A stretch of 64,000 bases of DNA from Candidatus Kapaibacterium thiocyanatum (GCA_001899175.1 MKVH01000003.1:144690-208689), one strand, 5' to 3'; positions 37,113 through 54,767 are shown, numbered from the stretch's first letter. Notes: generated by a model from the sequence alone, not told the origin. Program-made: numbers and translations.

Positions 37113-38660
37113 ATGGCAATGCTTGACCCGTACGTCGGGCCATGGACGAGGCGAGAGGCGGCACACCTGCTTCGACGCTCATGTTTCGGAGCGACATCCG
37201 CCGAGATCGACAGGGCTGTGACGGATGGTCTGCCGGCCACGCTCGCCACGATGATCGCGCCGCTGCCGGCGCCGGTTCCGCCTGTCGACCCGAGAACCGG
37301 CCAGACCTACGTGACAGGGACCTACGACCAGATGATGTCCGCCTATTACAATCGCGTCACCAAGGCCTGGTGGATCGAGCGTATGCTCCTGCAGCCCGTT
37401 TCGTTGCAGGAGAAGCTCGTGCTCTTCTGGATGAACCACTTCGTGACGGAGATGGAGGCGGTCCAGAACCCGCAGTACTGCTATGCCATCCAGGACTATC
37501 TCCGCATCAACGCATTCGGCAATTTCAAGCACATGGTGAGGGACATCACGCTGATGCCTGCCATGCTTCGCTACCTGAACGGAAACACGAACACCGTCGG
37601 CAACCCTAACGAGAACTATGCCCGTGAGCTGCAGGAGCTGTTCACGATCGGCAAGGGGGCCGAAGTCGGTCCGGGAGATTACACGAACTACACCGAGCAG
37701 GACGTTCGCGAAGCTGCCCGCGTTCTCACGGGCTGGCGGGACGCACGGCTCACCGGTGAGACGACGTTCAACTTCCGTCAGCACGATACTGGGGACAAAC
37801 GGTTCTCCGGAGCTTACGGAAACCGGACGATTGCAGGCCGTTCCGGCGCCGATGCGGGAACGGCGGAGCTGAACGACCTCGTCGACATGATCTTCGACCA
37901 GGACGAGACGTCACGCTACGTGATCAGGCGCCTGTATCGCTGGTTCGTAAACTCCGATATCGATGACGATATCGAACGTGAGGTGATACGTCCGCTCGCA
38001 CTGACGTTCCGTCAGAACGGCTTCGTCGTCGGACCGATTCTACGGACGCTGTTCGCGAGCACGCACTTCCACGACGATGCCATGCATGGCTGTGCGCTCA
38101 AGAGTCCTGCCGATTTCATCATCGGCCTCCTGAGATCTATCGGATCCTACGCATTGCCGACGGATGCACTCCAGCGGTACCAGTTCTGCAACAACATCGT
38201 CACGGCGCTCGCCGCACAGCAGATGGATCCGGGCAGCCCGCCGAACGTCGCCGGGTGGCCGGCCTACTATCAGGTGCCGGACTACTACCGCATATGGCTG
38301 AATACGGCGACGCTTCCGCTCCGCAATGGATACACCGATCAACTCATCATCGGCAGAAGGGGCGGGCTGGGGCTGTTCGACAGCATCGCCTATGTCAGGT
38401 CCATTCCCGATGCGAACGATCCATACCTTCTCGTCGATGAAGTCAACATGCGGCTGTTCGCCGTCGAGTTTACGGACGAACGTCGTACGGCACTCGTCAA
38501 GGACGTGCTGCAGAACGGTGCCCCGGACTATGAGTGGACGACGGAATGGGAGGGCTTCCTTGCCGATCCCGACAATGCGATGATGCGCAGCAGGATGAAG
38601 ACGAAGCTCGACGGCCTGTTCCGCTATCTCTTCCGTATGGCCGAATTCCAGTTGCTCTGA
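37113..38660 (+). CDS. DUF1800 protein
   Basis: A 515-residue DUF1800 family protein. It begins WTRREAAHLLRRSCFGAT, the family opening, and contains FWMNHFVTE, NENYARELQELFTIG, VREAARVLTGWRDA and FLADPDNAM. Function unestablished, although DUF1800 genes are regularly followed by a DUF1501 gene, as here (20-base gap). No signal peptide is visible. The ATG at 37113 has a strong GGAGGGAGAGG site. The pair may form one export- or surface-related unit. Confidence 0.9.
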   Translation: MAMLDPYVGPWTRREAAHLLRRSCFGATSAEIDRAVTDGLPATLATMIAPLPAPVPPVDPRTGQTYVTGTYDQMMSAYYNRVTKAWWIERMLLQPVSLQEKLVLFWMNHFVTEMEAVQNPQYCYAIQDYLRINAFGNFKHMVRDITLMPAMLRYLNGNTNTVGNPNENYARELQELFTIGKGAEVGPGDYTNYTEQDVREAARVLTGWRDARLTGETTFNFRQHDTGDKRFSGAYGNRTIAGRSGADAGTAELNDLVDMIFDQDETSRYVIRRLYRWFVNSDIDDDIEREVIRPLALTFRQNGFVVGPILRTLFASTHFHDDAMHGCALKSPADFIIGLLRSIGSYALPTDALQRYQFCNNIVTALAAQQMDPGSPPNVAGWPAYYQVPDYYRIWLNTATLPLRNGYTDQLIIGRRGGLGLFDSIAYVRSIPDANDPYLLVDEVNMRLFAVEFTDERRTALVKDVLQNGAPDYEWTTEWEGFLADPDNAMMRSRMKTKLDGLFRYLFRMAEFQLL

Positions 38661-38680
38661 TGTACTACAAGGAAACGAAC

Positions 38681-40255
38681 ATGAATCGCAGAACCTTCCT
38701 TGCACGTTCCACCGGAGCGATGGCGCTTCCGATGCTGCTCAACGGCCTGCCGGTCAAGGCCTTCGATGGACCGGTCCTGCATCGGTTACTGAACGGCGGT
38801 GAGGAAACGGACCACGTCCTCGTGCTCGTACAGCTCATCGGCGGCAACGACGGACTGAATACCGTGCTTCCGCTGGATCAATATGATGCGTACACGAGAC
38901 TGCGTTCCAACATCGCCATTCCCGAATCGGCGGCACTCAAGCTTACCGATACGACGGCTCTTCATCCCGTGATGACGGGACTGCGGGACCTTTTCCAGGA
39001 GAAGAAGGTCGCCCTCGTCCAGGGAGTGGGATATCCCAATCCGAATCTCTCGCACTTCCGTTCGACGGACATCTGGATGTCGGGCAGCGACGCCGACAAG
39101 GTCGTCGCCAACGGCTGGCTCGGCCGGTATCTCGGTGGATCCTATCCCGACTATCCTGCAGGCTATCCGAATGCGTCGACGCCGGATCCCCTGGCCATCC
39201 AGATATCGGCAGTCGTGTCGCTGGCACTGACCGGACTCAACCAGCAGTCCATGGGCATCGCGCTGCAGGATCCGCAGACATTCTACCAGCTCGTGAGCGG
39301 TACCGAGGCGCCGGGCAGTGATCTCCCCTCCGAGCCGTATGCACGCACGAACGTGGAATACGTACGCCAGGTACAATCCCAGTCCATGGCCTACTCCACC
39401 GTCATCAAGGCCGCTGCGGACAAGGCGCAGAACAAGGTCGAATATCCGTCGCAGAATCAGCTCGCGAGCCAGTTGCAGATCGTCGCACGCATGATCGCCG
39501 GAGGGTTGAAGACGCGTGTGTACGTGGTGACGCTCGGCGGCTTCGATACCCATGCCGCACAGGTGGTGGATGGAGCGACGACCACGGGCACGCATGCGAC
39601 GCTGCTTACCACCGTCTCCGACGCCATGACGGCATTCCAGCGCGACATCGAAGCGCTCGGTGTCCAGGATCGTGTCGTGTCGATGACCTTCAGTGAATTC
39701 GGCCGCCGCGTGGCATCCAACCTCAGTCTCGGAACGGATCACGGAACGGCGGCACCGATGTTCGTCGTGGGCGCGCCGGTGCAGGACGGTATCGTCGGTG
39801 TCAATCCGGATCTCGGCGATCTCGACAACGACAATCTCAAGATGCAGATCGACTTCCGGCAGGTCTACGCCTCCGTACTGGAGCAATGGTTCGGCGCCGA
39901 TCCTGCTGCGGTGCGGTCCATTCTCTTCCACGATTTCGCGACGGTGCCCATCATCCGCCGCATGCCGACGTCCGTCGACGACGTATCGTCATCCGCCTTC
40001 GGTATCAATGCCATCGCCCCCAATCCCGTCCGTGGCACGGCGAACATCCGCTATCTCGTCAACGAGGCGATGGACATGCATCTCGCCGTCTACGACAATC
40101 TCGGCTTCCACGTGGCAACGCTCGTGAAGGGATATGTGGCGCCGGGATCGTACACCGTTCCTTTCCATGCTGAGGGTCTTCCCTCGGGCAGCTATCTCGT
40201 CCGGATGGGCTATGGTGACAGATACAGGACATGGCCGCTCGTCGTCGTGAAGTGA
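38681..40255 (+). CDS. DUF1501 protein with Tat-like signal and T9SS-type C-terminus
   Basis: A 524-residue DUF1501 (sulfatase-like alkaline-phosphatase-superfamily) protein. The N-terminus MNRRTFLARSTGAMALPML has a twin-arginine RRTFL motif and a hydrophobic stretch, so folded export is likely. Core motifs: VQLIGGNDGLNTVLPLDQYDAY, VALVQGVGYPNPNLSHFRSTDIWMSG, VVTLGGFDTHAAQ, and GTDHGTAAPMFVVG. The last ~80 residues (NAIAPNPVRGTANIRY...LPSGSYLVRM) resemble a T9SS sorting domain. It starts 20 bases after DUF1800 with AAGGAAAC upstream. Enzymatic activity has not been shown for the family. Confidence 0.9.
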   Translation: MNRRTFLARSTGAMALPMLLNGLPVKAFDGPVLHRLLNGGEETDHVLVLVQLIGGNDGLNTVLPLDQYDAYTRLRSNIAIPESAALKLTDTTALHPVMTGLRDLFQEKKVALVQGVGYPNPNLSHFRSTDIWMSGSDADKVVANGWLGRYLGGSYPDYPAGYPNASTPDPLAIQISAVVSLALTGLNQQSMGIALQDPQTFYQLVSGTEAPGSDLPSEPYARTNVEYVRQVQSQSMAYSTVIKAAADKAQNKVEYPSQNQLASQLQIVARMIAGGLKTRVYVVTLGGFDTHAAQVVDGATTTGTHATLLTTVSDAMTAFQRDIEALGVQDRVVSMTFSEFGRRVASNLSLGTDHGTAAPMFVVGAPVQDGIVGVNPDLGDLDNDNLKMQIDFRQVYASVLEQWFGADPAAVRSILFHDFATVPIIRRMPTSVDDVSSSAFGINAIAPNPVRGTANIRYLVNEAMDMHLAVYDNLGFHVATLVKGYVAPGSYTVPFHAEGLPSGSYLVRMGYGDRYRTWPLVVVK

Positions 40256-41148: not shown

Positions 41149-44100
41149 ATGACACGTCGTTCCGTCATCGTATCGATTGTTCTTCTCACAGCCTTCATCC
41201 TCGCCGATAGCGTCGGTCTCGGGCAGGAACGGAAGGATCCTTCGCGTCATCGCCTGCTCTGGCGGATCACCGGACCGGGCGCGGTCGGCACCTCGTATCT
41301 CTTCGGTACCATGCACGTGCGTGACGAACGGGCCTTCGCCTTCGGCGATTCCGTGCTTCCCGCCCTGCGCAGGTGCAGTGCCTTCGCGATGGAAGTGGAT
41401 ATGGATTCAGTGCAGAACGCTATGATGGAGGGGCAGTTCGAGGGCACAGATGACAGTTCGGCTACCAGCGTGAAGGAGAGAATACGCGCGTGGGCACGCG
41501 ATGCCATTCTGATGACACCGCAGGACAAACGTATCGAGACGGTCTTCGATAACATCACGATCGGCCGGAAGCCGATGCCGTTGCATCGTGATGACTATCT
41601 CCTGCATCTGGATCTCTATCTGGAGCGAATGGCGAAGGCGGAAGGGAAAGCGTGCCACGGTCTGGAGAACGTTGCTACCGTGCGTTCCTACCTGTCGGTC
41701 CTGTTTGAAGGCCCAAGCGCGGACTCTACGTTTACCGTCACGAACAATAGGGAAATGGCGGATCGGCAACTGCGCACGCTGGCACTGTACGAGCAAGGTG
41801 ATGTCGAAGGACTGTATGTCAACATGGGGATCGCTACATCCTCTGCATATATGGACGCCATCATCCATCGGCGCAACGAAGGAATGATCGGTCGCATTAC
41901 CGGACTGTTGAAGGAGGAATCGACGTTCATCGCAGTCGGGGCCGCGCATCTGTGGGGGGAACGGGGACTCGTTGCACTGCTTCGCAAACGGGGATTCACG
42001 GTCGAGCCGGTTGTGCAGACGTTCCAGGATTCCCTACCACCAAGAAATCCTCCGTTCATGCCATATGGGACGCACGTCTTCAGGACGACGGACTCCATTC
42101 TCTCCTTCATATCGCCGATTCCATTGCAACAGGCGCCGGCGCTGGTCAGGGAGGCCACACTTTCCCAATTGCCGATGGACGGTGAGATGTTCGTCGGTGC
42201 AGATGCAGCCAGACAGGAATCCGTATCGATCATACACCTTACTGGCCTGATGCATCAGGCGAACAGCGACAATACGAGCATGTTCGGCGACATCGTCGAA
42301 GGACTATCGACCGATGTCGATACTGTACTATCCGCCCAAGAGAGGATCATCGCTGGCAAGGGCGTATTTCTTGTCAATGCCATCAGGAAGAAGATCCAGT
42401 TGACGATGCTGGTCGTCAAGACCGAGTCCACGATGTCCCTCATCATTCTCACGCAACGGGACAGGGATACATCCCTGCTGGACTATATCGAGCAATCGTT
42501 GACGATAGGCGAATCGATGCGGATCGATGAAACCTGGGAGGTATACACTGACGATACCCTCGGATTCTCGGTCGACATGCCGAAGGCGGCCGTCACTCGG
42601 GAATCGAAGGATTCCGAGGCGAACATCCGCAAGCTATGGCAGCGAATGTATACGGAAGGCAGCGGTGCAAGTACTCTCATGGTCCAGATCATGGATCTCA
42701 TGCCGGGCTACGTCTGGTCGAACGAACCGTTCAGGACCATTCCTGACATCATGGCTACGGCCATGGGTGCGGAGGTCACGGATACGGTGTATGACGAGCT
42801 GCAAGGCTATCCACATTGCATGGCGACATTGACCAAGAAAGGAGAGGTGGCCTGCATTCTCCACCTCGTCGTTCGGGATGGAAGGATGTATCTATTGCTC
42901 GGTAACTGGATGGCCGAACATGGGAAGGCATCGGTCGACCGGTTCGTCGCATCGTTCAAACTCCGTCCATTTCGGCGAGTTCAACACTGGCCGATCACGG
43001 CATGCATGGATTCGACCTTGATGCTTCCGTTGCCGACGCATACGTCGGGTCCGGAGGCCGAGCATCGTGAAGTTATTGGCCGAACGATCGGTATATATCG
43101 TCAGGACACCATTTCGAACGTCATGTGGTTCGTCGGACGGGTGATACTTCCGGAGTATCAGACGTTCGATGGATCCACCGATGCAGCGATGGATACGATC
43201 CTTGCAAGAGCCGGTCTGATCGATTCGATGACGGTGGTCGACACGACGATCGTGGACGGTGTCGTTCGTATTCGGGAAATACACAGGCGCCTGGATCGGG
43301 GATTCGGCATGTCCGTGCAGAGGACGTTCTTCTGCGGAACGGAGCTGTACGTGCTGTCGTCGCTGATCACCATGCCAACGTACCGCGATAGGCGACTCTG
43401 GTCGGCCCCGTTCGACGAAATGACATGTCGGTGCTCGATCGATACCACCACGCGATTCACATCGATGGCCGATCGATTATTCGCCGACGTAGTGTCGGAT
43501 GACAGCATTCGCAAGGATCGTGCGATGGAATACCTGCGGATGTCGAGAATGAATCCATCCGACTACGATATCTACATGGCACGGTATCGGTCGTGGATGA
43601 AGGATCGGAGGGATTCATATGTCGATGCGAAGGACTATGTACTCACCGATCTCTTTCGTCATGATGACGTTCGTACGAGAAGACTGCTACTCGCACTGGC
43701 CGATAGTACGAACGACGCACAGACGCGGGCCGATATTCACAATGATGTCATCTCGTATCGTGATATCGCGTCAACCGAACTGCTCGATTCGTTGGTCGGC
43801 AGCGGCACGGTACCGGATACGACGTGGTCGCTCGACCTCTTCAGGTGGATGCTGATGGATTCCATCTTGATCGACCCGCTCGCCAGGGTTGCGGATCGAT
43901 ACTATCTGCGGCCGAAACTCCGGGATCTGTATCTCATGACGAAGGGAATTCAGTATGAGACGGAGAGGGTGTTACCCGACAGGGACAAGGCGTGTATCAA
44001 CAAGGTCGAACGTATTCTGACGACGGTCATGCAGGAAATGGACAAACCGCCTGTCATGACGTCGATGCGGGAGATGCGCCGACAGTACAGCACAATGGTC

Positions 44101-44751
44101 AACAGTCTTTCTCTTCTTTGGTATCATCGTCATGATAAGAAGGTCATTGGGCTCATGAGATCGTTGATCATGAACCCGCATCAGGATGTGGGACTGGAAG
44201 CGATACGGAATCTCGCGACGGCAGGACAACGCCTCGACACACGCAGCATCCGGCGGTTCTTCGCCGATGCCGGTAGAAGGATGTCCATGCTGCGTTTGTG
44301 CGACAGTACCCGCAGCATATCCGCCGTTCCGAAATCGGTCCTTACCGATACATCATTGATGGAAGCGCTCATCGTCGAGGAAGTGCAGCGTGTATCGCAA
44401 GAGCCATACGGTGAAGATACCTACGATGAGACGGTGCCACTTTTCGGCGAGAAAGGCTACCGCCAGCCATCATCCATCGTCGTCAAGGACTATCAGGAAG
44501 AGAATCCGGACTATCGTGGCCGCTGGATACTCGTGAAGTTCAGAACGAATCTGCCGTACGGACCCGACGTCTGGTACGCTGGTATCGCCGGTCCGTTCTT
44601 TCCGGATATGCGCGGCCATATCGGAAAACTGTCGTTCGTGACGAAGTACGATGTATTCGACGACTACGATGCCGACGAACATGCCAGACTGCTGATGGAA
44701 TGGAAGGTGGAACAGGACTCGTATGAGTATGAAGATGCCGCCGATGAGTGA
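41149..44751 (+). CDS. Giant TraB/GumN-domain protein with long C-terminal extension
   Basis: A 1200-residue protein with an N-terminal signal-like segment (VIVSIVLLTAFILADSVG). Residues about 35-285 form a TraB/GumN (TIKI-like) domain with both GxxH motifs: LFGTMHVRDERAF (53-56) and VGAAHLWGERG (about 264). Known relatives include secreted metalloproteases and pheromone-shutdown proteins. The remaining ~900 residues match nothing I recognise. They contain two related modules beginning DDTLGFSVDMPKAAV and a similar unit near residue 640, then a helical Asp/Arg-rich part that may be HEAT-like. Normal family length is about 300, so this is an unusual extension. Confidence 0.75.
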   Translation: MTRRSVIVSIVLLTAFILADSVGLGQERKDPSRHRLLWRITGPGAVGTSYLFGTMHVRDERAFAFGDSVLPALRRCSAFAMEVDMDSVQNAMMEGQFEGTDDSSATSVKERIRAWARDAILMTPQDKRIETVFDNITIGRKPMPLHRDDYLLHLDLYLERMAKAEGKACHGLENVATVRSYLSVLFEGPSADSTFTVTNNREMADRQLRTLALYEQGDVEGLYVNMGIATSSAYMDAIIHRRNEGMIGRITGLLKEESTFIAVGAAHLWGERGLVALLRKRGFTVEPVVQTFQDSLPPRNPPFMPYGTHVFRTTDSILSFISPIPLQQAPALVREATLSQLPMDGEMFVGADAARQESVSIIHLTGLMHQANSDNTSMFGDIVEGLSTDVDTVLSAQERIIAGKGVFLVNAIRKKIQLTMLVVKTESTMSLIILTQRDRDTSLLDYIEQSLTIGESMRIDETWEVYTDDTLGFSVDMPKAAVTRESKDSEANIRKLWQRMYTEGSGASTLMVQIMDLMPGYVWSNEPFRTIPDIMATAMGAEVTDTVYDELQGYPHCMATLTKKGEVACILHLVVRDGRMYLLLGNWMAEHGKASVDRFVASFKLRPFRRVQHWPITACMDSTLMLPLPTHTSGPEAEHREVIGRTIGIYRQDTISNVMWFVGRVILPEYQTFDGSTDAAMDTILARAGLIDSMTVVDTTIVDGVVRIREIHRRLDRGFGMSVQRTFFCGTELYVLSSLITMPTYRDRRLWSAPFDEMTCRCSIDTTTRFTSMADRLFADVVSDDSIRKDRAMEYLRMSRMNPSDYDIYMARYRSWMKDRRDSYVDAKDYVLTDLFRHDDVRTRRLLLALADSTNDAQTRADIHNDVISYRDIASTELLDSLVGSGTVPDTTWSLDLFRWMLMDSILIDPLARVADRYYLRPKLRDLYLMTKGIQYETERVLPDRDKACINKVERILTTVMQEMDKPPVMTSMREMRRQYSTMVNSLSLLWYHRHDKKVIGLMRSLIMNPHQDVGLEAIRNLATAGQRLDTRSIRRFFADAGRRMSMLRLCDSTRSISAVPKSVLTDTSLMEALIVEEVQRVSQEPYGEDTYDETVPLFGEKGYRQPSSIVVKDYQEENPDYRGRWILVKFRTNLPYGPDVWYAGIAGPFFPDMRGHIGKLSFVTKYDVFDDYDADEHARLLMEWKVEQDSYEYEDAADE

Positions 44752-44825
44752 CACCACGTTGTAACCGCCCCGCCATCCTGCGTGTCCGAGGGAATGAACA
44801 TCCATCCTTCACCTCGGAGGTCGTC

Positions 44826-45608
44826 ATGGGCGCACGTTCTCACTACGCTGCCGGACGCTGGCATGCGAACGATCGTCTTGCGGGCAGGGCATATTCGATG
44901 ACACTCGGTCTGGTGGGTACTGCCGCCATCGTCGTCTACACTGCCGCGATGCTGTTCCACGAAGAGATCGTCGGAGTCATCGTACCGATGCTGCCGAGTA
45001 CGATCGATGCACGGACCTACTACATCTCCCTGCCGATGCCACCCGATCCGGTTGCGAGTGCAGGAGCACGGACTGCAGAATCCATCCCGGCGAAGACGAC
45101 GAACGGTAGTCGCCCGGTACCTGTCGCTGATCCGGACGTGACGATCACGAAGACCCTGATTCCGCCCAGGACACCCGGAACCATCATCGACAACGGCAGT
45201 AGCTCCACAGTGGGAAATGGAAACGGCAGTGGTAACGGTAACGGAGCCGGTAATGGTACCGGAAATGGTGGCGGTGGCGGAACGACGCAGACCGTGACGC
45301 CGACGATCCCCGACGATGGAGAAATATCGTTCGCGGAGGAAGAGCCGGTCTTCGACTATGATGTTCTGAGACGGTCCGTGGTCTATCCGGAAATGGCACG
45401 CAGGAATGGTGTCGAAGGAACGGTCGTCGTCAAGGTCTATGTCGACGAACAGGGACATGTGCGAGACGTCAGGGTCCATCAATCGGACCATGCGCTGCTC
45501 AACGACGCCGCCCTGCGGGGAGTTCGGGGCATCACGTTCAAGCCCGGGCGTCAGAACGGTCAGGCCGTCGGGTGCTGGCTCTACATTCCGGTACGATTCA
45601 CGTTGTGA
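44826..45608 (+). CDS. TonB-domain energy-transducer protein with Gly/Asn-rich linker
   Basis: A 260-residue inner-membrane protein. The ATG at 44826 follows CTCGGAGG. After a short basic N-terminus one TM helix occurs (about residues 24-46), then a Pro/Thr-rich periplasmic linker with a Gly-Asn repeat block (45213-45283), and a C-terminal TonB domain (YPEMARRNGVEGTVVVKVYVDEQGHVRDV...GITFKPGRQNGQAVGCWLYIPVRF). It would carry proton-motive energy to outer-membrane receptors such as the one at 2431-4863. No exbB/exbD genes are adjacent. Confidence 0.85.
   Translation: MGARSHYAAGRWHANDRLAGRAYSMTLGLVGTAAIVVYTAAMLFHEEIVGVIVPMLPSTIDARTYYISLPMPPDPVASAGARTAESIPAKTTNGSRPVPVADPDVTITKTLIPPRTPGTIIDNGSSSTVGNGNGSGNGNGAGNGTGNGGGGGTTQTVTPTIPDDGEISFAEEEPVFDYDVLRRSVVYPEMARRNGVEGTVVVKVYVDEQGHVRDVRVHQSDHALLNDAALRGVRGITFKPGRQNGQAVGCWLYIPVRFTL
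45213..45283 (+). repeat. Low-complexity Gly/Asn codon repeat in the TonB linker
   Basis: A run of GGN-AAY-type codons encodes GNGNGSGNGNGAGNGTGNGG. It is an imprecise coding repeat forming a flexible periplasmic linker, prone to length variation by slippage. Confidence 0.7.
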
Positions 45609-45923: not shown

Positions 45924-48900
45924 ATGCGTCGTCTCGTACTTGCTGTTACATTTCTCGTCTGTGCCGTCGGGATGTCCGGACAGGTCCGTCCGGACTGGGC
46001 CCTGGGCACACCATTGCCGGAAGCGCTGTCAGGACATGGTGCCGTCATGGTCCATACCGGCGACGTCCTCGTCGTAGGTGGTCTGCGTGCCGATGGTTCG
46101 ACGAGCGATCGCTCATACGTCATCGATGGCAGGACGGGTGCCGTACGGCTCACGGCCAACACGATGGCGACGTCCCGCTGCCTTGCTGCCGTCCTGGAAC
46201 TGCGTCGTCCGGACGGCAGTAGCGAAGTCTACGCCATCGGCGGATATACGGGTGGCGGCGGATCGTATTCGAGTACGGCGACGATCGAACGTTGTACCTA
46301 CATTCCGGCCATCGATCAATGGCGCTGGTCCGCGGTCGGCTCGCTTCCCGTGGCCCTTGCGGAGCCCCGCGCCGTATTCAACGGCGGTGATCACATCATC
46401 GTCTGCGGCGGCCGCGTACAGACCGCTGCCGCACTCGGTACGGGTACGGTCTCCGCCACCACCGCACGGATACACAGGCAGACGGGGGCGGTCGACAGAT
46501 TGTCGGATATGAGCGTCGCGCGCGTCGGTCACGCACTGATGCGTCAGATCAACGCCGTCGGAGCCCTCGAAGTCATCGTCGCCGGAGGCGAGGCGTCCGG
46601 CGTGCCCACGACGGAGCTTCTTGCCGGAACGTCATGGGATGGACGGGCCAACCCGCCGCGCGAATTGCGCTCGTATGCCGTCGCGATGGGCGATCCTGCC
46701 GGTATCGCGCGCATGAGTGGCGGACGGAATGCGACGACGACACTGTCGACGGCGGAGTGGTACGACGTGAAGAGTGGATGGCGCGGTATGCCGCGTCCCC
46801 TCGTCGCGCGCAGTCATGCCGCCTCCACCCTCATCGCCGGTCCCCGCGATACGGCCATGGCCTATCTCGTCGCCGGTGGCCGCGCATCGGATCCCGTATC
46901 CGATGTCGAAGTCTTCACATTACCTACGAGCTCCGATCCTGCGGGATTCTGGGAGGCCATCGCCTCGACGCCGTTGCGTGTGGATGCGACGGGCCTCGCC
47001 ATCACCGACAACAATCTGCCCGTCGTAGTCGCGGGCCGTGAACGTACGGCGCCGACGAAGGCGACGATGTGGCTGCGTCCGGTGAGATGGACCGCACCCG
47101 CCTATGATCCTACGGAAGTGGGCGCGCGGAGCGACAGCGTCCTGATCGTTCTGGAAAACACATGGCTCCTTCCCCTCACGGTGACGATCAGACAGGAACA
47201 GGGCAGTGCCGAGTTCCTCGTGACGGCCGATACGGCCGCCCTCGTACTGCCGGCGGGATCGAAGAGAATCATCACATCATGGTTCCGTCCGTCGGTTCCC
47301 GGCCAGCGCGCATCGGCCATCGTCATCGACTATGGTCCGATCCAGGATACGATACCCTTGCGAGGTACCGGGCTTTCGTCGACGGTTCGCGTACTCGCCG
47401 CATCGATCGATGCGGGTGACGTCGCCGTAGGAACGTCGGATACCGTATGTGCCGATGTGCTCGTCAACGACGGTTCCGATACGTTGCGTCTCGACTCTCT
47501 CGTCATGACGCCTCCCGACCGGTTCACGGTGCTGTCGCCGAAAGGTGTCGTACGTGTAGCTCCGGGCGATACGCTTCATGCCTGTATCGTCTTCGCACCC
47601 CAGGTCCGTGGTGCCGAAGGTGCCACGCTCGAATGTCATTATGGAGCCCGGCATATTCCCGTGGCGACGGTCGGCAAGGGTATCCGTACGTATGCCATCG
47701 CGACCGGCTCGACGACGTGCGATACGGTGATGGCGACGCGGGGTACGGATGTGCCGACGTTCGTGACCATACGTAATCCGGGAGACGGACCCATCGTCGT
47801 GAATGCTGTGAACGTCATCGCAGCGCGACAGGATCTGTTCTCCGTCGGTACGTCACAACCCATTCCCTTCACGCTCGCTCCCGGAGCGACGGTCGTCGTC
47901 GACATCATCCTGCACGTCCAGCGTGAAGCCAGGGAGCAGGCTGTCGTGCGCTTCGTCTCCAACAGCGATACGGCAGTCGAAGCTCCGGTCTGCATCGTGA
48001 TCCGTTCCCGTACCATCCAGGCATCGCGCGACAGCATCGAGATCGGTCCGCTTTGTGCGGGCGACAGCGTCGATATCTCCGTGGATCTGACGAATGCAGG
48101 TGCATTCGATGTCATCCGCATCGACAGCGTCATCGTGACGGGCGATCCTGCCATCACGATCGATCCGGTCAACGGCGTCGAATTGCAGCCGCGTTCGTCG
48201 CTGCCCATCGTATGTACCCTGCGATCATCGGTATCGGGCGACGTGCGCGGGACGATTTCCGCGCGTGGGCCGTTCGGTTCCATCGACATACCTGTCCATG
48301 CTCTCGTACGTCCGTCGATCGGCGCGGCCATCGCCGATCGTTCGACGAGCGTCGGACTCGTCGACACGGTGAGCATCACGTTCGCCGATCCGGCGATGAG
48401 AGAAGCCCGATTCCGCATCGAACTGCCGTACCGGGCACTGGATGCACGCCGTGTCGTCGGCCGTTCCGCCGACGACGGAATCGACGAAGCCGCATCGTCA
48501 CTCGTTCATGAAGGTAACGGAACGTACAGTCTTCGTGCGGCATGGACGAAGGACGCTTCCGTCGAACGATCCCTCGGTATCGAGGTGGAGGTCCTCCGTA
48601 GCGACCTGTCCGCAGCGACGGTCCATGCATTGTCCGATCCGCTCATCGATGTCTGTCTCGACGTGAACGAAGCGACGGTGTTCATCGCCGGTGCATGCGG
48701 CCCGGATGCCGGTGTCGTTGCCGGACGACAGACGCTCGTGGCGCGATATGCCGGAGCGGGCCGTGACGAAATCGACATCGTCGTCGACGATGTCCTGAAC
48801 GCCCCTGCCCATGTCGAGCTCTATGACATCCGCGGCATCCTTCTGCATTCACTTCCTCTTCCGTCGTCTCCCGCCGGTGCTGCCGCTTCCATGCCGGCCG

Positions 48901-48986
48901 CCGGTATTCCCGACGGTGTCTGCGTCGTGCGGCTTCGCCGTACCGATGCGGGCGACGTCGTAACCCTCCTGCACGTTCTTCGGTGA
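45924..48986 (+). CDS. Secreted kelch-repeat/ASH-repeat protein with T9SS-type C-terminus
   Basis: A 1020-residue secreted protein. The ATG at 45924 follows GCGGAGTGG and opens a signal peptide (MRRLVLAVTFLVCAVGMSG). About residues 30-380 are kelch-like blades (HGAVMVHTGDVLVVGG, SEVYAIGGYTGGGG, NGGDHIIVCGGR). About 400-800 are repeated choice-of-anchor/ASH beta-sandwich modules (SIDAGDVAVGTSDTVCADVLVNDGSDTLRLDS; SIEIGPLCAGDSVDIS). A T9SS-like tail follows (AHVELYDIRGILLHSLPL). The stop overlaps the next gene's start region. Likely a surface adhesin or scaffold; function unknown. Confidence 0.83.
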   Translation: MRRLVLAVTFLVCAVGMSGQVRPDWALGTPLPEALSGHGAVMVHTGDVLVVGGLRADGSTSDRSYVIDGRTGAVRLTANTMATSRCLAAVLELRRPDGSSEVYAIGGYTGGGGSYSSTATIERCTYIPAIDQWRWSAVGSLPVALAEPRAVFNGGDHIIVCGGRVQTAAALGTGTVSATTARIHRQTGAVDRLSDMSVARVGHALMRQINAVGALEVIVAGGEASGVPTTELLAGTSWDGRANPPRELRSYAVAMGDPAGIARMSGGRNATTTLSTAEWYDVKSGWRGMPRPLVARSHAASTLIAGPRDTAMAYLVAGGRASDPVSDVEVFTLPTSSDPAGFWEAIASTPLRVDATGLAITDNNLPVVVAGRERTAPTKATMWLRPVRWTAPAYDPTEVGARSDSVLIVLENTWLLPLTVTIRQEQGSAEFLVTADTAALVLPAGSKRIITSWFRPSVPGQRASAIVIDYGPIQDTIPLRGTGLSSTVRVLAASIDAGDVAVGTSDTVCADVLVNDGSDTLRLDSLVMTPPDRFTVLSPKGVVRVAPGDTLHACIVFAPQVRGAEGATLECHYGARHIPVATVGKGIRTYAIATGSTTCDTVMATRGTDVPTFVTIRNPGDGPIVVNAVNVIAARQDLFSVGTSQPIPFTLAPGATVVVDIILHVQREAREQAVVRFVSNSDTAVEAPVCIVIRSRTIQASRDSIEIGPLCAGDSVDISVDLTNAGAFDVIRIDSVIVTGDPAITIDPVNGVELQPRSSLPIVCTLRSSVSGDVRGTISARGPFGSIDIPVHALVRPSIGAAIADRSTSVGLVDTVSITFADPAMREARFRIELPYRALDARRVVGRSADDGIDEAASSLVHEGNGTYSLRAAWTKDASVERSLGIEVEVLRSDLSAATVHALSDPLIDVCLDVNEATVFIAGACGPDAGVVAGRQTLVARYAGAGRDEIDIVVDDVLNAPAHVELYDIRGILLHSLPLPSSPAGAAASMPAAGIPDGVCVVRLRRTDAGDVVTLLHVLR

Positions 48987-48994
48987 GATCATTG

Positions 48995-50980
48995 ATGAAG
49001 CAATCTCTTCTTGTTGTAATGCTGTGTTGCGTCGTTCCATTGCAGGCGCAGTTCCACGACCTGGAAATCGGTGTGATGGGAGCTGCCACGCTGAACATGC
49101 ATCGCGGATCGTTCTCCACGTCGAGCGGCCTTGACGAATGCGGGACGTTCAGCGATGCACTGACACCAGGTCTGATGATCGGTAACGACGTCCTTGCCCG
49201 TATCGGCGATCGATGGGGATTGTCGGGACGACTGTTCTACTATCGTGCCGATGGTTCCTTCACGTCGCCGACGGGAACGACGCCGCGTGTACGGCTCGCC
49301 GACGGAACGCTCGTACCGCTGGTATCCGAATACGCCCTGACGACGGATCTCGACTACATCGGACTCGAAGCGCTCGGCAAGTACTTCGTCGTGCCCGATG
49401 TCTACGTCGCTGCCGGACCGCAGGTGGGCTATGCGATGCGAACGGCGTTCGAGCAGCGCGAAGACATTCTCTCGCCCTCCAATCTGAAGTTCTCCAACGG
49501 ATCGTCGTCCCGCGTCATCCTGGCCGGATCGTTCGAACGGACGTCGGTAGACGTCAACCGCCAGCTTCGTCTCGGCATCACGGCAGCCGTGGGTATGGAC
49601 CTGACCCTATCGGGCAACTGGCGCCTGCATCCCGAAGTAGGCTTCACGTATGGTCTGACGAACGTCCTCTCGACCTTCGACTGGAAGGTCCATACCATCC
49701 GCGCAGGAGTGACGCTCGGCTATGTACTGAACGCGCCTGCAGCGGTGATCGTCACCGAAGCCGCACCTCCACCTCCGCCTCCACCGCCCGTTCCTTCCAT
49801 GCCCGCCAACCTCGCGTTGAACATCGAAGGTGCATCGTCGATCACGATCACGGAAACGCGTCGCAGCGATCTGTTCCCGCTGTTGCCCTACGTCTTCTTC
49901 GATCATGCGAGTTCCGTCATTCCTGCGCGATATCGTGACCGGAAGGGAGAAACGGAATCGTTCGATCCGCTGACGGCAGCGGACAGTGGCCTCGCATCCT
50001 ATCACGACATGCTCAACATCGTCGGTCAACGGTTGCGCGAGCGGCCGAGTGCACGGATCACGTTGACGGGACACCGGGAACCCGCCGACGGCGAAGCATC
50101 GTCTTCGCTCTCGATGGAACGTGCCGTCGCTGTACGTGACTATCTCCAGCGCATATGGAATATCGAACCGTCGCGCATGGACGTCGCAGCGCGTGAACTG
50201 CCCTCCGTCGTCTCCAACCGGAACACCGACGACGGTCGTGCCGAGAACCGACGCGTGGAAATCACGACGAACGATCCGGCCATCGTAGCTCCCATACAAC
50301 GCCGGACCATCCGCCGCGAAACAGACCCCGACATCGTCCGGTTGATTCCTCTCACGCAGCCCGTTTCGGCATTCACGGATGCCGCCACGATCCGCATCAT
50401 GGCACCGAACGGACGTGTGCTCATGGACAAGCCGTACCACGTAGCATCGCAGGAAACCGTCGCATGGACGCTGAACGCCGACGACATCGCTTCCGTGCTG
50501 GGAACAGCCCAACGCGTCGACCTCGTCGCAGAACTCACGGCGACGGAGAACGATGGAACGTCGCGCAAGGCCACACGAACGATCCCCGTACGCTCGATGA
50601 TCCGCTCGGCCCGATACGACGATGAAATCGTCAACGACTCCACCGTGGAACGCTTCAGTCTCATCTTCTTCGACTACGACACGCCGACCATCAGCACGTT
50701 CAACACGACGGTGATGGACCTCATCCGGGCCCGCTGCCGTACGACGTCGACGGTGCGTATCACCGGTCTCACGGACCGTACCGGTAATCCGACGTACAAC
50801 GAAGACCTGTCCCGTCGCCGTGCGGCTTCGGTCGCCGACGCAATCAAGGCACGGATCATTCCGAATGCCATCGAGTCCCGGGGGCTCGGACCCAATCTTC
50901 TTTTCGACAACGATCTGCCCGAAGGCCGGTTCTACAATCGTACCGTGCTGGTCGAAGTCGTGACACCACTCGACAGATGA
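48995..50980 (+). CDS. Porin-like outer-membrane protein with two OmpA-type domains
   Basis: A 661-residue protein: signal peptide (MKQSLLVVMLCCVVPLQAQ), an outer-membrane beta-barrel-like part (about 25-250), a polyproline hinge (about 257-268), an OmpA-like domain (about 300-428, ARITLTGHREPADGEAS, GRAENRRVEI), a beta-rich spacer, and a second OmpA-like domain (about 553-658, SLIFFDYDTPTIS, TGLTDRTGNPTYNEDLSRRRA). OmpA domains bind peptidoglycan; two in one chain is unusual. The ATG at 48995 is preferred over a GTG at 48983. Gene ends overlap both neighbours, indicating one operon. Confidence 0.85.
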   Translation: MKQSLLVVMLCCVVPLQAQFHDLEIGVMGAATLNMHRGSFSTSSGLDECGTFSDALTPGLMIGNDVLARIGDRWGLSGRLFYYRADGSFTSPTGTTPRVRLADGTLVPLVSEYALTTDLDYIGLEALGKYFVVPDVYVAAGPQVGYAMRTAFEQREDILSPSNLKFSNGSSSRVILAGSFERTSVDVNRQLRLGITAAVGMDLTLSGNWRLHPEVGFTYGLTNVLSTFDWKVHTIRAGVTLGYVLNAPAAVIVTEAAPPPPPPPPVPSMPANLALNIEGASSITITETRRSDLFPLLPYVFFDHASSVIPARYRDRKGETESFDPLTAADSGLASYHDMLNIVGQRLRERPSARITLTGHREPADGEASSSLSMERAVAVRDYLQRIWNIEPSRMDVAARELPSVVSNRNTDDGRAENRRVEITTNDPAIVAPIQRRTIRRETDPDIVRLIPLTQPVSAFTDAATIRIMAPNGRVLMDKPYHVASQETVAWTLNADDIASVLGTAQRVDLVAELTATENDGTSRKATRTIPVRSMIRSARYDDEIVNDSTVERFSLIFFDYDTPTISTFNTTVMDLIRARCRTTSTVRITGLTDRTGNPTYNEDLSRRRAASVADAIKARIIPNAIESRGLGPNLLFDNDLPEGRFYNRTVLVEVVTPLDR

Positions 50981-50991
50981 GGACGGAATCC

Positions 50992-53900
50992 ATGAACCAT
51001 CTCGTCCGCTCTGTTCTCATCGTTTCTCTCGTCGCACTCGCCGGCATCCAGGCCTCTGCGCAGTCGAGCCTGTCGATCGTCGATGCACTGCCGCCGTATC
51101 TCCTGTCGTGCCGATTCACCAATAACGGTCACTTCTCGATCTCGACGAAGTACACGGGTACGCCGACGACGATCATCTATCGTGAGGACGGTACGGGGAA
51201 TCGTCCGGTGAACTATACGTCGCACGTCCACCTCTACGTCGACGGTGTGGTCTATCAGATGGCCTACGAAGAAGACACGACGACGCGTACCGCACCACCA
51301 CCGCATCCTCTCGCCGTGAAGCGGATGTATCCCGATACCGTTGCCGGCCGTCCGCGCATCAACGTCGACGTCCAGGCGCTGACCGTCGCCGAGAAGGACA
51401 CGATCAGGGCCACACTGACGATGGAGCCCGTGCTCCGCTCGGGTGGTGCCTTCATCAGATTCACGATCACCGTCGACAACCGTGGTACGCGTCCGCACGA
51501 TATCGGTGCGCTGCTGCTGGTGGACACGAAGATCGGGGCCAACGACCGTGCTCCCATCGCGACGGCCTATGGCTACTCGGGGGTGGAAACGAAGTACGAA
51601 CGGAAGGTGGCTCCTGGTCTTCCCGCGTTCTGGCTCGCACTGGAGGGTACGCCGACGGCACCGGGACTCGTCGCACGCGGTAACCTGCGCGGTACGGAGC
51701 TGATCGAACCCGATGAGATCATCTTCGGTAACTGGACGGACGACCCGACGCGCGGCATACCCGGATTGTATCGAACGTTATGGAAGGGACGTCCGATCTC
51801 GCCGGCAGGATATACCGACAGCGCCATCCTGCTGTTGTGGGATTCGGAGGACCAGCCTGCGGGGCTTCGCCGTATCGTGGCTGCGACGGAAATCGGTATC
51901 GCCGATTCACTCAGCGTGCTCACGGGTGGTGGAAGCGGAGGCGGTAATCCCGGCGGTGATGGCGGCCTGGCATTGGCGGGGCAAGGCGGATGTCTCGAAG
52001 TGGAGGCGATCACCGAGCGTCCGTGCGGCGACCCGTCATGGAGCGTCTATGCACCCGATACCGTCCAGACGATCTATCTGGTCACGAACCTCGATACGGT
52101 GCGTGCGGCATCGGTTCGCCTCGTCGTCGGTGCACAGCCACGTGGTGTCCAGGCCATCGATACCGATGTATCCGTCATCCAGGACCCGCTCGCGGCCAGA
52201 GCGACGGGTGTGGGTCTTCTTTCCTTCGCTGTCGCGCCGCGTCTCGCCGACCACACGTACGAGATTCCCGTTACCGTCGTCCGCAACGGTGCGGATACCG
52301 TACTGAAGGACTCCGTCTGCATCATCGTACCTGGTGTGGCGGCCCGCATCAAGGCGAGAGACCATCTCACCGTGCCTGTCTGCCCCGGTGAGACGGATAC
52401 CGTGGACGTCACCGTCGACCTCGATGGTCCCCGCTGTCGTCAGGTCGTCGGTGCCACGATCATCGATACCCCATCGCCGACGCTCGCACAGGTTCTTCAG
52501 CCCTTGCCGATGCTCGCAGCGAACGGAAGCGGCAGGATCCGCGTGGCCGTATCGCCTGCGACGGAAGGTCAGCAGCAGGTACGCATCGCAGTACACGTAC
52601 GTGATGAAGAAGTGCTCGCCCCGGGAGATACGACGTGGGTGGAACTGCGCGATACGCTGACGCTGACGATCGTCGGACGTCCGGCGGAGTTCGCTTTCGT
52701 ACCGGCCATCGACAGTATCGATCTCGGTGACGTATGTATCGGCGATTCGGTCGACGACGACCTGATCGTCCAGAATCTTGGTGGATGCGATGTAGAACTG
52801 ACGGCCGCTCTATGGATCGACGATGCGGGCGGGACGTTCAAGGCCATCCCCGATTCGATCGTGGCGCGCAGGATCGGCCGCGCATCGCGCAACGAACTAC
52901 CCCTCGTGGCATTCGGTCGTCGTCCGGGTGTCGCCGTCGGCAAGCTACGCATCACGAGTCCGGCCCGGCCGCAACAGCGTGACGTGACCGTTCGCGTCAA
53001 CGTCGTACGTCCAGCCTATACCATCGCCGTCGATACCGTCGAGTTCGATACCGTATGCCCCAATGAGCGCACTGTGCGGATGCTCGGCATCTACAATCCC
53101 ACGCCATGTTCCGTATCGATCGATTCCGTGACGGTAACGGATCCGGGTGGACGTATCCGTATGACGTCGAGCGATGGCTTCACGATCTCGGCGCGGGGCA
53201 GGGTGACGATTCCCGTCGTCGTCGAAGCTGTCCAGGCCTCGGATATCGTCGTGCCTCTCACCATCCACTCCGTCGAGGCGGGCGACCAGCAACGTACGGT
53301 GCATGTCGTGGTCCGAACACGGCAGCTCGCACCGTCCACGCCGTCGCTGGAGCTCGGTGATGTACGGAAGGGAACGACGGTCGTTGATACCGTCGAAGTA
53401 ACGAACGTCGGCGATGCGCCGATGACGGTCACCTCGTTGCGTCTTGCCGGAACATCAGCGGCGGATTATGCCGCCGTACCTGCCGATGGAAGGGCCTTCC
53501 CCTTCGTCCTCCAGCCGTCGGAGCGATTCGACGTGCGCGTGACCTTCACGCCGAGCGATATCGAGACGAGGCGTGCGACGTTGATCGTGGCTACGACTGC
53601 CGCTCCGTGTGCAGTTCTGCAGCCCATCGTCCTTACCGGACGCGGGGTGGTGCCGATCATGGACATCGCCACCTCGCGTATCGGTGCCGGTGCAGTTTGT
53701 ATCGGTACAGCCGTCGATACGACGATCACCATACGCAATGCCGGAAACTCGACGTTGCGGCTGACGTCCATCACGATACCCGTGAACGAAGCATCGTTGT
53801 CGACGACAGCGTCATTGCCCATCGCCATCGACTCCGGTATGAGCGTATCGTTGCCGCTGCAGATCGCACCGCGCGTTCTGGGCACGCGTACGCTGAACAT

Positions 53901-54660
53901 CCATCTCGAACATGACGGTGAATGGCTGTCGCCCGTCGATACGACCATCGACGTTTCCCTTCGCGGAGTGCTGTGTGCCGATGTCTCCATCGATACGATC
54001 CGTGCCGACGTCGGTACCCGTATCGACATTCCGGTGCGGCTCCGACCGAGGTATGCTCTCGCTCCCGATTCCGTGACGTCGCTGCTCGTCGGTTCGGCGG
54101 CGCCATTGCATGTCCAGGTGCGTACGGACAGGGCCCAGGTCGATGTCTCGAACGCCGATGAAGGGCTTGCCGGTGCATCGGTGGCCGGCACGACCATCGT
54201 ACCGGGACTCGTCGATATCGAACGTCTGGACGTCGTTCCCACGGCGATGGGCGATGTCGTCACGATCCTTCGCGCGGAGGTCCTGCTTGGTCCCCAACGG
54301 ACGAGCCCCCTTCTGCCTGCGGTCGTGAGCATGGCCAACGGCGACGTCGAACTGCGTATCCTTCCCGGTCTGCTCCAGGCCGACCGGTGCGCTTTCGACA
54401 ATCGAACGGTCGAGGAGCGGCCGATTCCGGCGGTGTGGAATGCAGGCAGTGGAATCGTCGTCTACCTGCCCGATGGCAGGAGTGGGGAGCTGCGCATGAC
54501 GACGCTCGCCGGAGCCGTCGTCCATACGGTATCGTTGCCGCAGAGCGGCGGTGGTACGATGTCGCTGCCGATTCCCGACGGAGTGGCACACGGATGGTAT
54601 GGCCTCGTCCTTACGACCGACGATGGCCAGATCGTACGTACGGCCATGCTGCTGCCGTAG
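50992..54660 (+). CDS. Giant secreted choice-of-anchor/ASH-repeat protein with T9SS-type C-terminus
   Basis: A 1222-residue secreted protein with a signal peptide (MNHLVRSVLIVSLVALAGIQASAQ). The ATG at 50992 has GAGGACGG upstream; an ATG at 50977 overlaps the previous stop (ATGA). Residues about 25-303 form a domain I do not recognise (FTNNGHFSISTKYTG; FIRFTITVDNRGTRPHDIGALLLVDTKIGAN). A Gly-rich hinge (about 309-333) leads to ASH/choice-of-anchor repeats (about 336-986, SLELGDVRKGTTVVDTVEVTNVGDAPMTV). The tail (GIVVYLPDGRSGELRMTTLAG...GWYGLVL) resembles a T9SS sorting domain. Function unknown; clearly part of the preceding operon. Confidence 0.82.
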   Translation: MNHLVRSVLIVSLVALAGIQASAQSSLSIVDALPPYLLSCRFTNNGHFSISTKYTGTPTTIIYREDGTGNRPVNYTSHVHLYVDGVVYQMAYEEDTTTRTAPPPHPLAVKRMYPDTVAGRPRINVDVQALTVAEKDTIRATLTMEPVLRSGGAFIRFTITVDNRGTRPHDIGALLLVDTKIGANDRAPIATAYGYSGVETKYERKVAPGLPAFWLALEGTPTAPGLVARGNLRGTELIEPDEIIFGNWTDDPTRGIPGLYRTLWKGRPISPAGYTDSAILLLWDSEDQPAGLRRIVAATEIGIADSLSVLTGGGSGGGNPGGDGGLALAGQGGCLEVEAITERPCGDPSWSVYAPDTVQTIYLVTNLDTVRAASVRLVVGAQPRGVQAIDTDVSVIQDPLAARATGVGLLSFAVAPRLADHTYEIPVTVVRNGADTVLKDSVCIIVPGVAARIKARDHLTVPVCPGETDTVDVTVDLDGPRCRQVVGATIIDTPSPTLAQVLQPLPMLAANGSGRIRVAVSPATEGQQQVRIAVHVRDEEVLAPGDTTWVELRDTLTLTIVGRPAEFAFVPAIDSIDLGDVCIGDSVDDDLIVQNLGGCDVELTAALWIDDAGGTFKAIPDSIVARRIGRASRNELPLVAFGRRPGVAVGKLRITSPARPQQRDVTVRVNVVRPAYTIAVDTVEFDTVCPNERTVRMLGIYNPTPCSVSIDSVTVTDPGGRIRMTSSDGFTISARGRVTIPVVVEAVQASDIVVPLTIHSVEAGDQQRTVHVVVRTRQLAPSTPSLELGDVRKGTTVVDTVEVTNVGDAPMTVTSLRLAGTSAADYAAVPADGRAFPFVLQPSERFDVRVTFTPSDIETRRATLIVATTAAPCAVLQPIVLTGRGVVPIMDIATSRIGAGAVCIGTAVDTTITIRNAGNSTLRLTSITIPVNEASLSTTASLPIAIDSGMSVSLPLQIAPRVLGTRTLNIHLEHDGEWLSPVDTTIDVSLRGVLCADVSIDTIRADVGTRIDIPVRLRPRYALAPDSVTSLLVGSAAPLHVQVRTDRAQVDVSNADEGLAGASVAGTTIVPGLVDIERLDVVPTAMGDVVTILRAEVLLGPQRTSPLLPAVVSMANGDVELRILPGLLQADRCAFDNRTVEERPIPAVWNAGSGIVVYLPDGRSGELRMTTLAGAVVHTVSLPQSGGGTMSLPIPDGVAHGWYGLVLTTDDGQIVRTAMLLP

Positions 54661-54708
54661 CACGGCATGAGCGGACGGTCTTCCCCTATGTATGCCCGTA
54701 AATGAAGA

Positions 54709-54736
54709 ACGCCGGTCCGAACGAACGGACCGGCGT
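54709..54736 (-). terminator. Probable intrinsic terminator of the tig-clpP-clpX operon
   Basis: A perfect 11-bp inverted repeat (ACGCCGGTCCG / CGGACCGGCGT) with a 6-base loop lies between two convergent genes. On the minus strand it is followed by TCTTCATTTA, a modest T-rich tail, so it most likely ends the clpX transcript. It may also slow transcripts coming from the other side. Confidence 0.7.
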
Positions 54737-54767
54737 CGGCATGTGATGTCTGATGGTGTGTCTGGCC

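Follow-up and report, generated by a model that had tools for sequence, protein, structure and literature searches.

A conserved operon joining two putative type IX secretion cargo proteins to a double-OmpA barrel protein in Candidatus Kapaibacterium thiocyanatum and its relatives

Known systems for holding type IX cargo

Surface holding of type IX secretion system (T9SS) cargo is known for a few model Bacteroidota, i.e., through A-LPS for type A cargo and through PorP/SprF plus PorE for type B cargo. Cargo with a type A C-terminal domain is anchored to A-LPS by PorU/PorV (PMC9143113). In the PG1035–PorP–PorE system of Porphyromonas gingivalis, the cargo binds a barrel and the barrel binds a peptidoglycan-linked OmpA protein (PMC9143113); PorE is an outer-membrane lipoprotein with TPR, beta-propeller, CRD and OmpA domains. 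In the SprB–SprF pair of Flavobacterium johnsoniae, cysteines of the partner matter, the periplasmic Cys-X-Cys of SprF being bonded to GldK (PMC9143113, PMC12635249). In the OmpA–TPR–fibroslime complexes of Fibrobacter succinogenes, too, OmpA proteins have been suggested as the peptidoglycan attachment of T9SS-linked complexes on the surface (PMC6851124).

The operon described here encodes a kelch/ASH protein (gene 1), an OmpA-type barrel protein (gene 2) and an ASH giant (gene 3). We propose that it resembles PG1035–PorP–PorE in that T9SS cargo would be held via an outer-membrane barrel linked to an OmpA-type peptidoglycan-binding domain. However, P. gingivalis has a 14-strand FadL-type barrel and places the OmpA domain on a second protein, the lipoprotein PorE, for cargo with a type B tail, whereas here one polypeptide combines a predicted 8-strand barrel with two OmpA domains, and the putative cargo has type-A-like tails. 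Given these differences in barrel family, domain arrangement and tail type, the operon does not belong to that system. With SprB–SprF it shares a giant T9SS protein encoded beside an outer-membrane partner (PMC9143113, PMC12635249), but SprF belongs to the PorP barrel family and has its Cys-X-Cys in the periplasm, whereas gene 2 encodes an OmpA-type barrel with a conserved cysteine in a predicted extracellular loop. The type-A-like tails and the PorV-family genes of this genome recall the A-LPS route, which, however, needs no dedicated barrel gene, while here one is fixed beside the cargo. The gene 2 protein also resembles the OmpA/OprF family, where an 8-strand barrel is followed by an OmpA peptidoglycan-binding domain, but it has two OmpA domains split by a beta-sandwich, and constant operon partners. 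The Fibrobacter complexes have TPR and fibroslime partners instead, and no kelch/ASH operon is described there (PMC6851124). A literature search returned no description of this operon. The initial annotation knew of no described system with this composition, which stands for the exact parts within the searches made; the general scheme of cargo, barrel and OmpA–peptidoglycan link, however, is already known.

Gene layout, conservation and secretion tails

The window, i.e., the whole 64,000-nucleotide stretch of DNA analysed, comes from a genome of 3.27 Mb in 28 contigs (G000). Gene 1 (45924..48986, plus strand) encodes 1020 residues with a signal peptide-like start, a kelch beta-propeller, an ASH/choice-of-anchor-D region and a diverged T9SS C-terminal domain, as judged from Pfam/NCBIfam matches to kelch repeats and ASH/choice-of-anchor-D and from the orthologues L057–L064 and L115–L123. 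Gene 2 (P0002; 48995..50980, plus strand) encodes 661 residues comprising an OmpA-type 8-strand barrel, OmpA domain 1, a beta-sandwich and OmpA domain 2, based on Pfam/NCBIfam matches (OMP_b-brl_2 and two OmpA stretches), an AlphaFold2 (AF2) model and Foldseek. Gene 3 (50977..54660, plus strand) encodes 1227 residues, or 1222 from the ATG at 50992, with an N-terminal domain, a Gly-rich linker, an ASH/choice-of-anchor-D array (ASH/HYDIN/choice-of-anchor-D matches in Pfam/NCBIfam) and a diverged T9SS C-terminal domain.

The frames, strands and ends of these three tightly packed plus-strand genes agree with the initial annotation, which had also described stop/start overlaps at both junctions. 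At the first junction, a GTG start at 48983 (giving 665 residues) overlapping the gene 1 stop is possible, but the ATG at 48995 is at least as likely; it lies 8 nt past that stop and opens a signal peptide (MKQSLLVV...). In most orthologous loci gene 2 starts at −4 to about +11 nt relative to the gene 1 stop, L059 and L118 having larger or ambiguous gaps. At the second junction, the overlap at 50977 is borne out by orthologues, with an overlap of −4 or −1 in 11 of 18 loci and a spacing of ≤7 nt in 6 more, L117 being without a near start. Downstream, an inverted repeat with a 12-bp stem (54708..54737, no strand assigned), flanked by gene 3 and the convergent clpX, is probably a terminator. A promoter-type scan of the locus gave nothing useful.

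Within the host family, gene 1 occurs in 10 of 23 genomes and gene 3 in exactly the same 10, neither ever being found alone. A clear gene 2 orthologue (42–46% identity) is present in nine of those genomes, and the order is kept in all eight relatives that have one. In the tenth genome, G002, the set is broken by contig ends, with a gene 2 fragment directly upstream of gene 3 (L125). A class-wide search of 391 genomes with the gene 3 N-terminal domain gives 20 strong matches; these are spread over six families, of which one lies outside the order. An OmpA gene lies directly upstream of the giant in 20/20, and the full gene 1–2–3 order is found in all 20 except where the contig stops. Because this order persists at roughly 30–43% protein identity while the flanking genes vary, its conservation in these sequences evidently goes beyond chance. 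The set adjoins tig-clpP-clpX in five genomes and occupies other sites elsewhere, showing that it is not carried by housekeeping synteny. The evolutionary distances of the three proteins correlate at 0.95–0.99, which, as expected, is what joint inheritance of the genes predicts. The fixed coupling claimed by the initial annotation is thus strongly supported, being all-or-none in the family and showing one and the same gene order wherever a class locus is complete, and the search for gene order in relatives found the homologues adjacent rather than scattered.

The best-conserved part of the operon is the N-terminal domain of gene 3 (51064..51921, plus strand; 54–61% identity to orthologues), which matches no NCBIfam model and no named family. 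Its AF2 model is poor (pLDDT 52) and unfit for structure search. Weak relatives of the domain exist outside the set, so that it is older or wider than the operon. One such relative belongs to a 1192-residue T9SS-tailed protein at L126:7638-11216, which stands without an OmpA neighbour.

The tails of genes 1 and 3 are less easily recognised, and in the window neither protein gives a Pfam/NCBIfam sorting-domain match at E ≤ 1 in a single-sequence HMM search (Por_Secre_tail/TIGR04183). Against a profile of canonical tails, drawn mostly from the same genome and the orthologous operons, the orthologue tail alignments nevertheless score 97.3% for gene 1 (type-A-like domain at 48720..48983, plus strand) and 96.4% for gene 3 (54439..54657, plus strand) in profile–profile comparison, vs. 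<1% for ten control segments of the same proteins. The Pfam Por_Secre_tail is found in gene 1 of 3/9 near orthologues and passes the Pfam cut-off in gene 1 of L119 (42.1 bits), L123 and L116 and in gene 3 of L119 (37.5 bits). The T9SS-like tails noted earlier are therefore real but diverged. The genome holds an SprA_N (SprA/Sov) match and three PorV-family genes over the cut-off, as well as 102 Por_Secre_tail matches. The orthologue tails, along with SprA, PorV and the roughly 100 sorting tails that this genome encodes, support T9SS export as the predicted route for both proteins.

The PorP/SprF model (TIGR03519) has no match in this genome, no match above the cut-off in 15 sampled genomes of the class, and no place among the 25 of 27 NCBIfam family matches listed for gene 2; elsewhere in the phylum the same model finds many copies, with matches in 13 of 61 genomes. 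No type B tails were found in the genome with a type B model that was also silent on its control.

The barrel protein, its paralogues and their cysteines

The AF2 model of the gene 2 protein, built on nine orthologues (mean pLDDT 77, pTM 0.50), runs from eight long barrel strands through an OmpA domain and a beta-sandwich to a second OmpA domain, and Foldseek matches it to the barrels of Ail, OmpA, OmpX and NspA and to OmpA C-terminal domains. The barrel spans residues 21–244 (49055..49726, plus strand; AF2 strands, Foldseek and OMP_b-brl_2), and from this topology the protein would sit in the outer membrane. The term porin in the initial annotation is doubtful and was dropped, as the AF2 strands and Foldseek indicate an 8-strand OmpA/Ail-type barrel rather than a large porin. 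Two further assignments were rejected. The protein does not belong to the PorP/SprF carrier family, since it has no TIGR03519 match and eight strands rather than the 14 of the FadL type, and it is not a PorE, having neither TPR nor propeller domain and no lipobox at the orthologue starts; it scores 18 bits against the PorE model NF052230, whose cut-off is 600 bits.

The two OmpA domains are not equivalent. In domain 1 (49880..50278, plus strand) Arg376 is kept, and Glu362 occupies the canonical Asp position in most orthologues. The beta-sandwich that follows (50294..50614, plus strand; AF2 secondary structure) is the least conserved part of the protein. Domain 2 (50639..50968, plus strand) has Asp594 and Arg609 in all orthologues and paralogues compared, and it is through this domain that the protein has the Asp and Arg pair by which OmpA-family peptidoglycan binding is recognised. 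Of the earlier suggestion that the protein can grip peptidoglycan twice, the part concerning domain 2 is supported, whereas domain 1 keeps only the Arg and has Glu for Asp.

OmpA proteins are common in this genome (36 matches), and about a dozen of its genes are P0002-like. Five of the 12 inspected, gene 2 included, directly follow a T9SS-tailed gene, the chance of which is about 3e-5 if the genes are independent. Across the family, the barrel lies directly behind a T9SS-tailed gene in 18 of 31 paralogue loci, and the two genes frequently overlap by 1 or 4 bases; the partners include WD40-ASH, ASH-array and other giants. At L065:8937-18157 in the same genome, two double-OmpA barrel genes flank a T9SS-tailed WD40-ASH giant of 1434 residues. 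Some barrel-only proteins, which lack OmpA domains, are likewise found behind T9SS-tailed giants, so that the barrel is the common element. At L166:1948-2793 and L164:1192-2004, such barrel-only proteins keep the cysteine of loop 1 (TCCSGY and LCPDF). Several of the paralogous OmpA barrels are LysE-linked or solitary, with no T9SS gene beside them; the barrel family therefore does more than serve adjoining cargo.

Cys49 of the gene 2 protein (codon 49139..49141, plus strand), which the AF2 strands place in the predicted extracellular loop 1, is the sole cysteine common to the orthologues in their alignment (18/18), several of the mature proteins having no other cysteine. Almost every full-length paralogue has a loop-1 cysteine (C or CC), usually as a consecutive pair where the gene follows a T9SS-tailed giant. 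On the cargo side, orthologues of gene 1 have seven invariant cysteines and those of gene 3 have thirteen conserved ones, while in the WD40-ASH giants an invariant cysteine (12/12) immediately precedes the sorting domain, at 99 to 101 residues from the end. A juxta-tail cysteine is present in 6/7 T9SS proteins with an adjacent barrel vs. 10/38 without (p about 0.005, though the paralogues are not independent). The 10/38 control weakens this cysteine as a clear hallmark of barrel-linked cargo, and in the kelch protein the juxta-tail Cys925 may simply pair with Cys911. We infer a role for the invariant loop-1 cysteine in cargo attachment. A bolder version, which we regard as improbable, is that OmpA-type barrels with a loop-1 C or CC replace PorP/SprF throughout the class and form an intermolecular disulfide with the cysteine preceding the cargo's sorting domain. 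Given the control and the non-independent paralogues, such a tether is a hypothesis rather than a result; if true, it would provide a covalent link from a surface giant to a peptidoglycan-bound protein.

A surface-display proposal and its alternatives

We lean, by a modest degree, towards the operon being a T9SS surface-display unit, composed of two exported cargo proteins and a peptidoglycan-linked OmpA barrel that acts as anchor or receptor. The proteins of genes 1 and 3 would reach the periplasm via Sec and then cross the outer membrane by the type IX secretion system, using their type-A-like C-terminal domains. The gene 2 protein would sit in the outer membrane through its 8-strand barrel, bind peptidoglycan chiefly via the second OmpA domain, and serve as a cell-wall-linked anchor or receptor for both secreted proteins, thereby taking the role that PorP (or SprF) plus PorE have elsewhere. 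By analogy, anchoring of the cargo by the gene 2 protein is a reasonable reading, and it is strengthened by the paralogous barrels that also lie directly behind T9SS-tailed giants. The sequence evidence for the operon is, however, evidence of linkage and not of binding, and physical contact between the gene 2 protein and its presumed cargo is our inference. Even in a conserved operon the products may never come into contact, and since PorV is present, type A cargo may need no other carrier.

The main rival holds that the gene 2 protein is a cargo-specific export carrier, as SprF is for SprB, which collects both proteins at the Sov/SprA translocon; its OmpA domains would merely hold the carrier in place, and later anchoring would follow another route, e.g., LPS attachment. 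SprB export indeed needs SprF, encoded beside it (PMC9143113, PMC12635249), and the shared part of the loci with T9SS-tailed giants is the barrel, with or without OmpA domains; the lack of PorP/SprF in the class sample also fits. PorP, SprF and PorV, however, are of the 14-strand FadL type (PMC9143113), whereas gene 2 models with eight strands and matches OmpA/Ail, and PorV-family carriers for type A cargo are already in the genome. We consider an export carrier unlikely, if worth keeping in mind. That the genes are merely co-expressed, with an envelope-stabilising OmpA protein and two secreted proteins of related physiological use that make no contact, is in our view rather unlikely: the abundance of OmpA proteins and the several paralogues without a T9SS neighbour are in keeping with it, but the order is kept class-wide while the flanks vary, the overlaps are conserved, and the pairing of cargo with barrel arose or persisted in several other paralogue groups. 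Large T9SS cargo next to an outer-membrane barrel also recalls sprB–sprF (PMC12635249), and thus a gliding-type system in which the giant would be a mobile adhesin propelled over the surface. We judge this highly improbable, since a protein with two OmpA domains in tandem, at least one of which has an intact peptidoglycan-binding pair, suits a fixed anchor better than a moving one, and neither SprF nor a type B tail was found (the type B control being silent).

The display unit matters because about 100 T9SS tails occur here with no recognisable PorP/SprF in the class sample, so that something else may hold the cargo. A cargo–barrel–cargo operon, together with paralogous cargo-linked barrels that have a common surface cysteine, provides a concrete and testable candidate for such holding.

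The surroundings of the operon show several further features. A fourth gene upstream of gene 1 is homologous in nine loci (L058, L059, L060, L061, L064, L115, L116, L123 and L124); its product is about 1080–1420 residues long where complete, with a T9SS tail and a cysteine about 95–109 residues from the end. This gene is missing at the window and in several other loci. At 41149-45608 of the window, a TonB-like gene overlaps that of a 1200-residue TraB/GumN-domain protein; L057 and L064 instead have a TonB-like gene between the operon and clpX. At 37113-40255 lies a gene pair, the last member of which encodes a DUF1501 protein whose T9SS tail is weak, and this pair is kept beside the operon in L057 and L064. 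Finally, the whole three-gene set is present at L083 (JAGFIZ010000062.1) in a record labelled Bradyrhizobiaceae, which is probably a mislabelled MAG.
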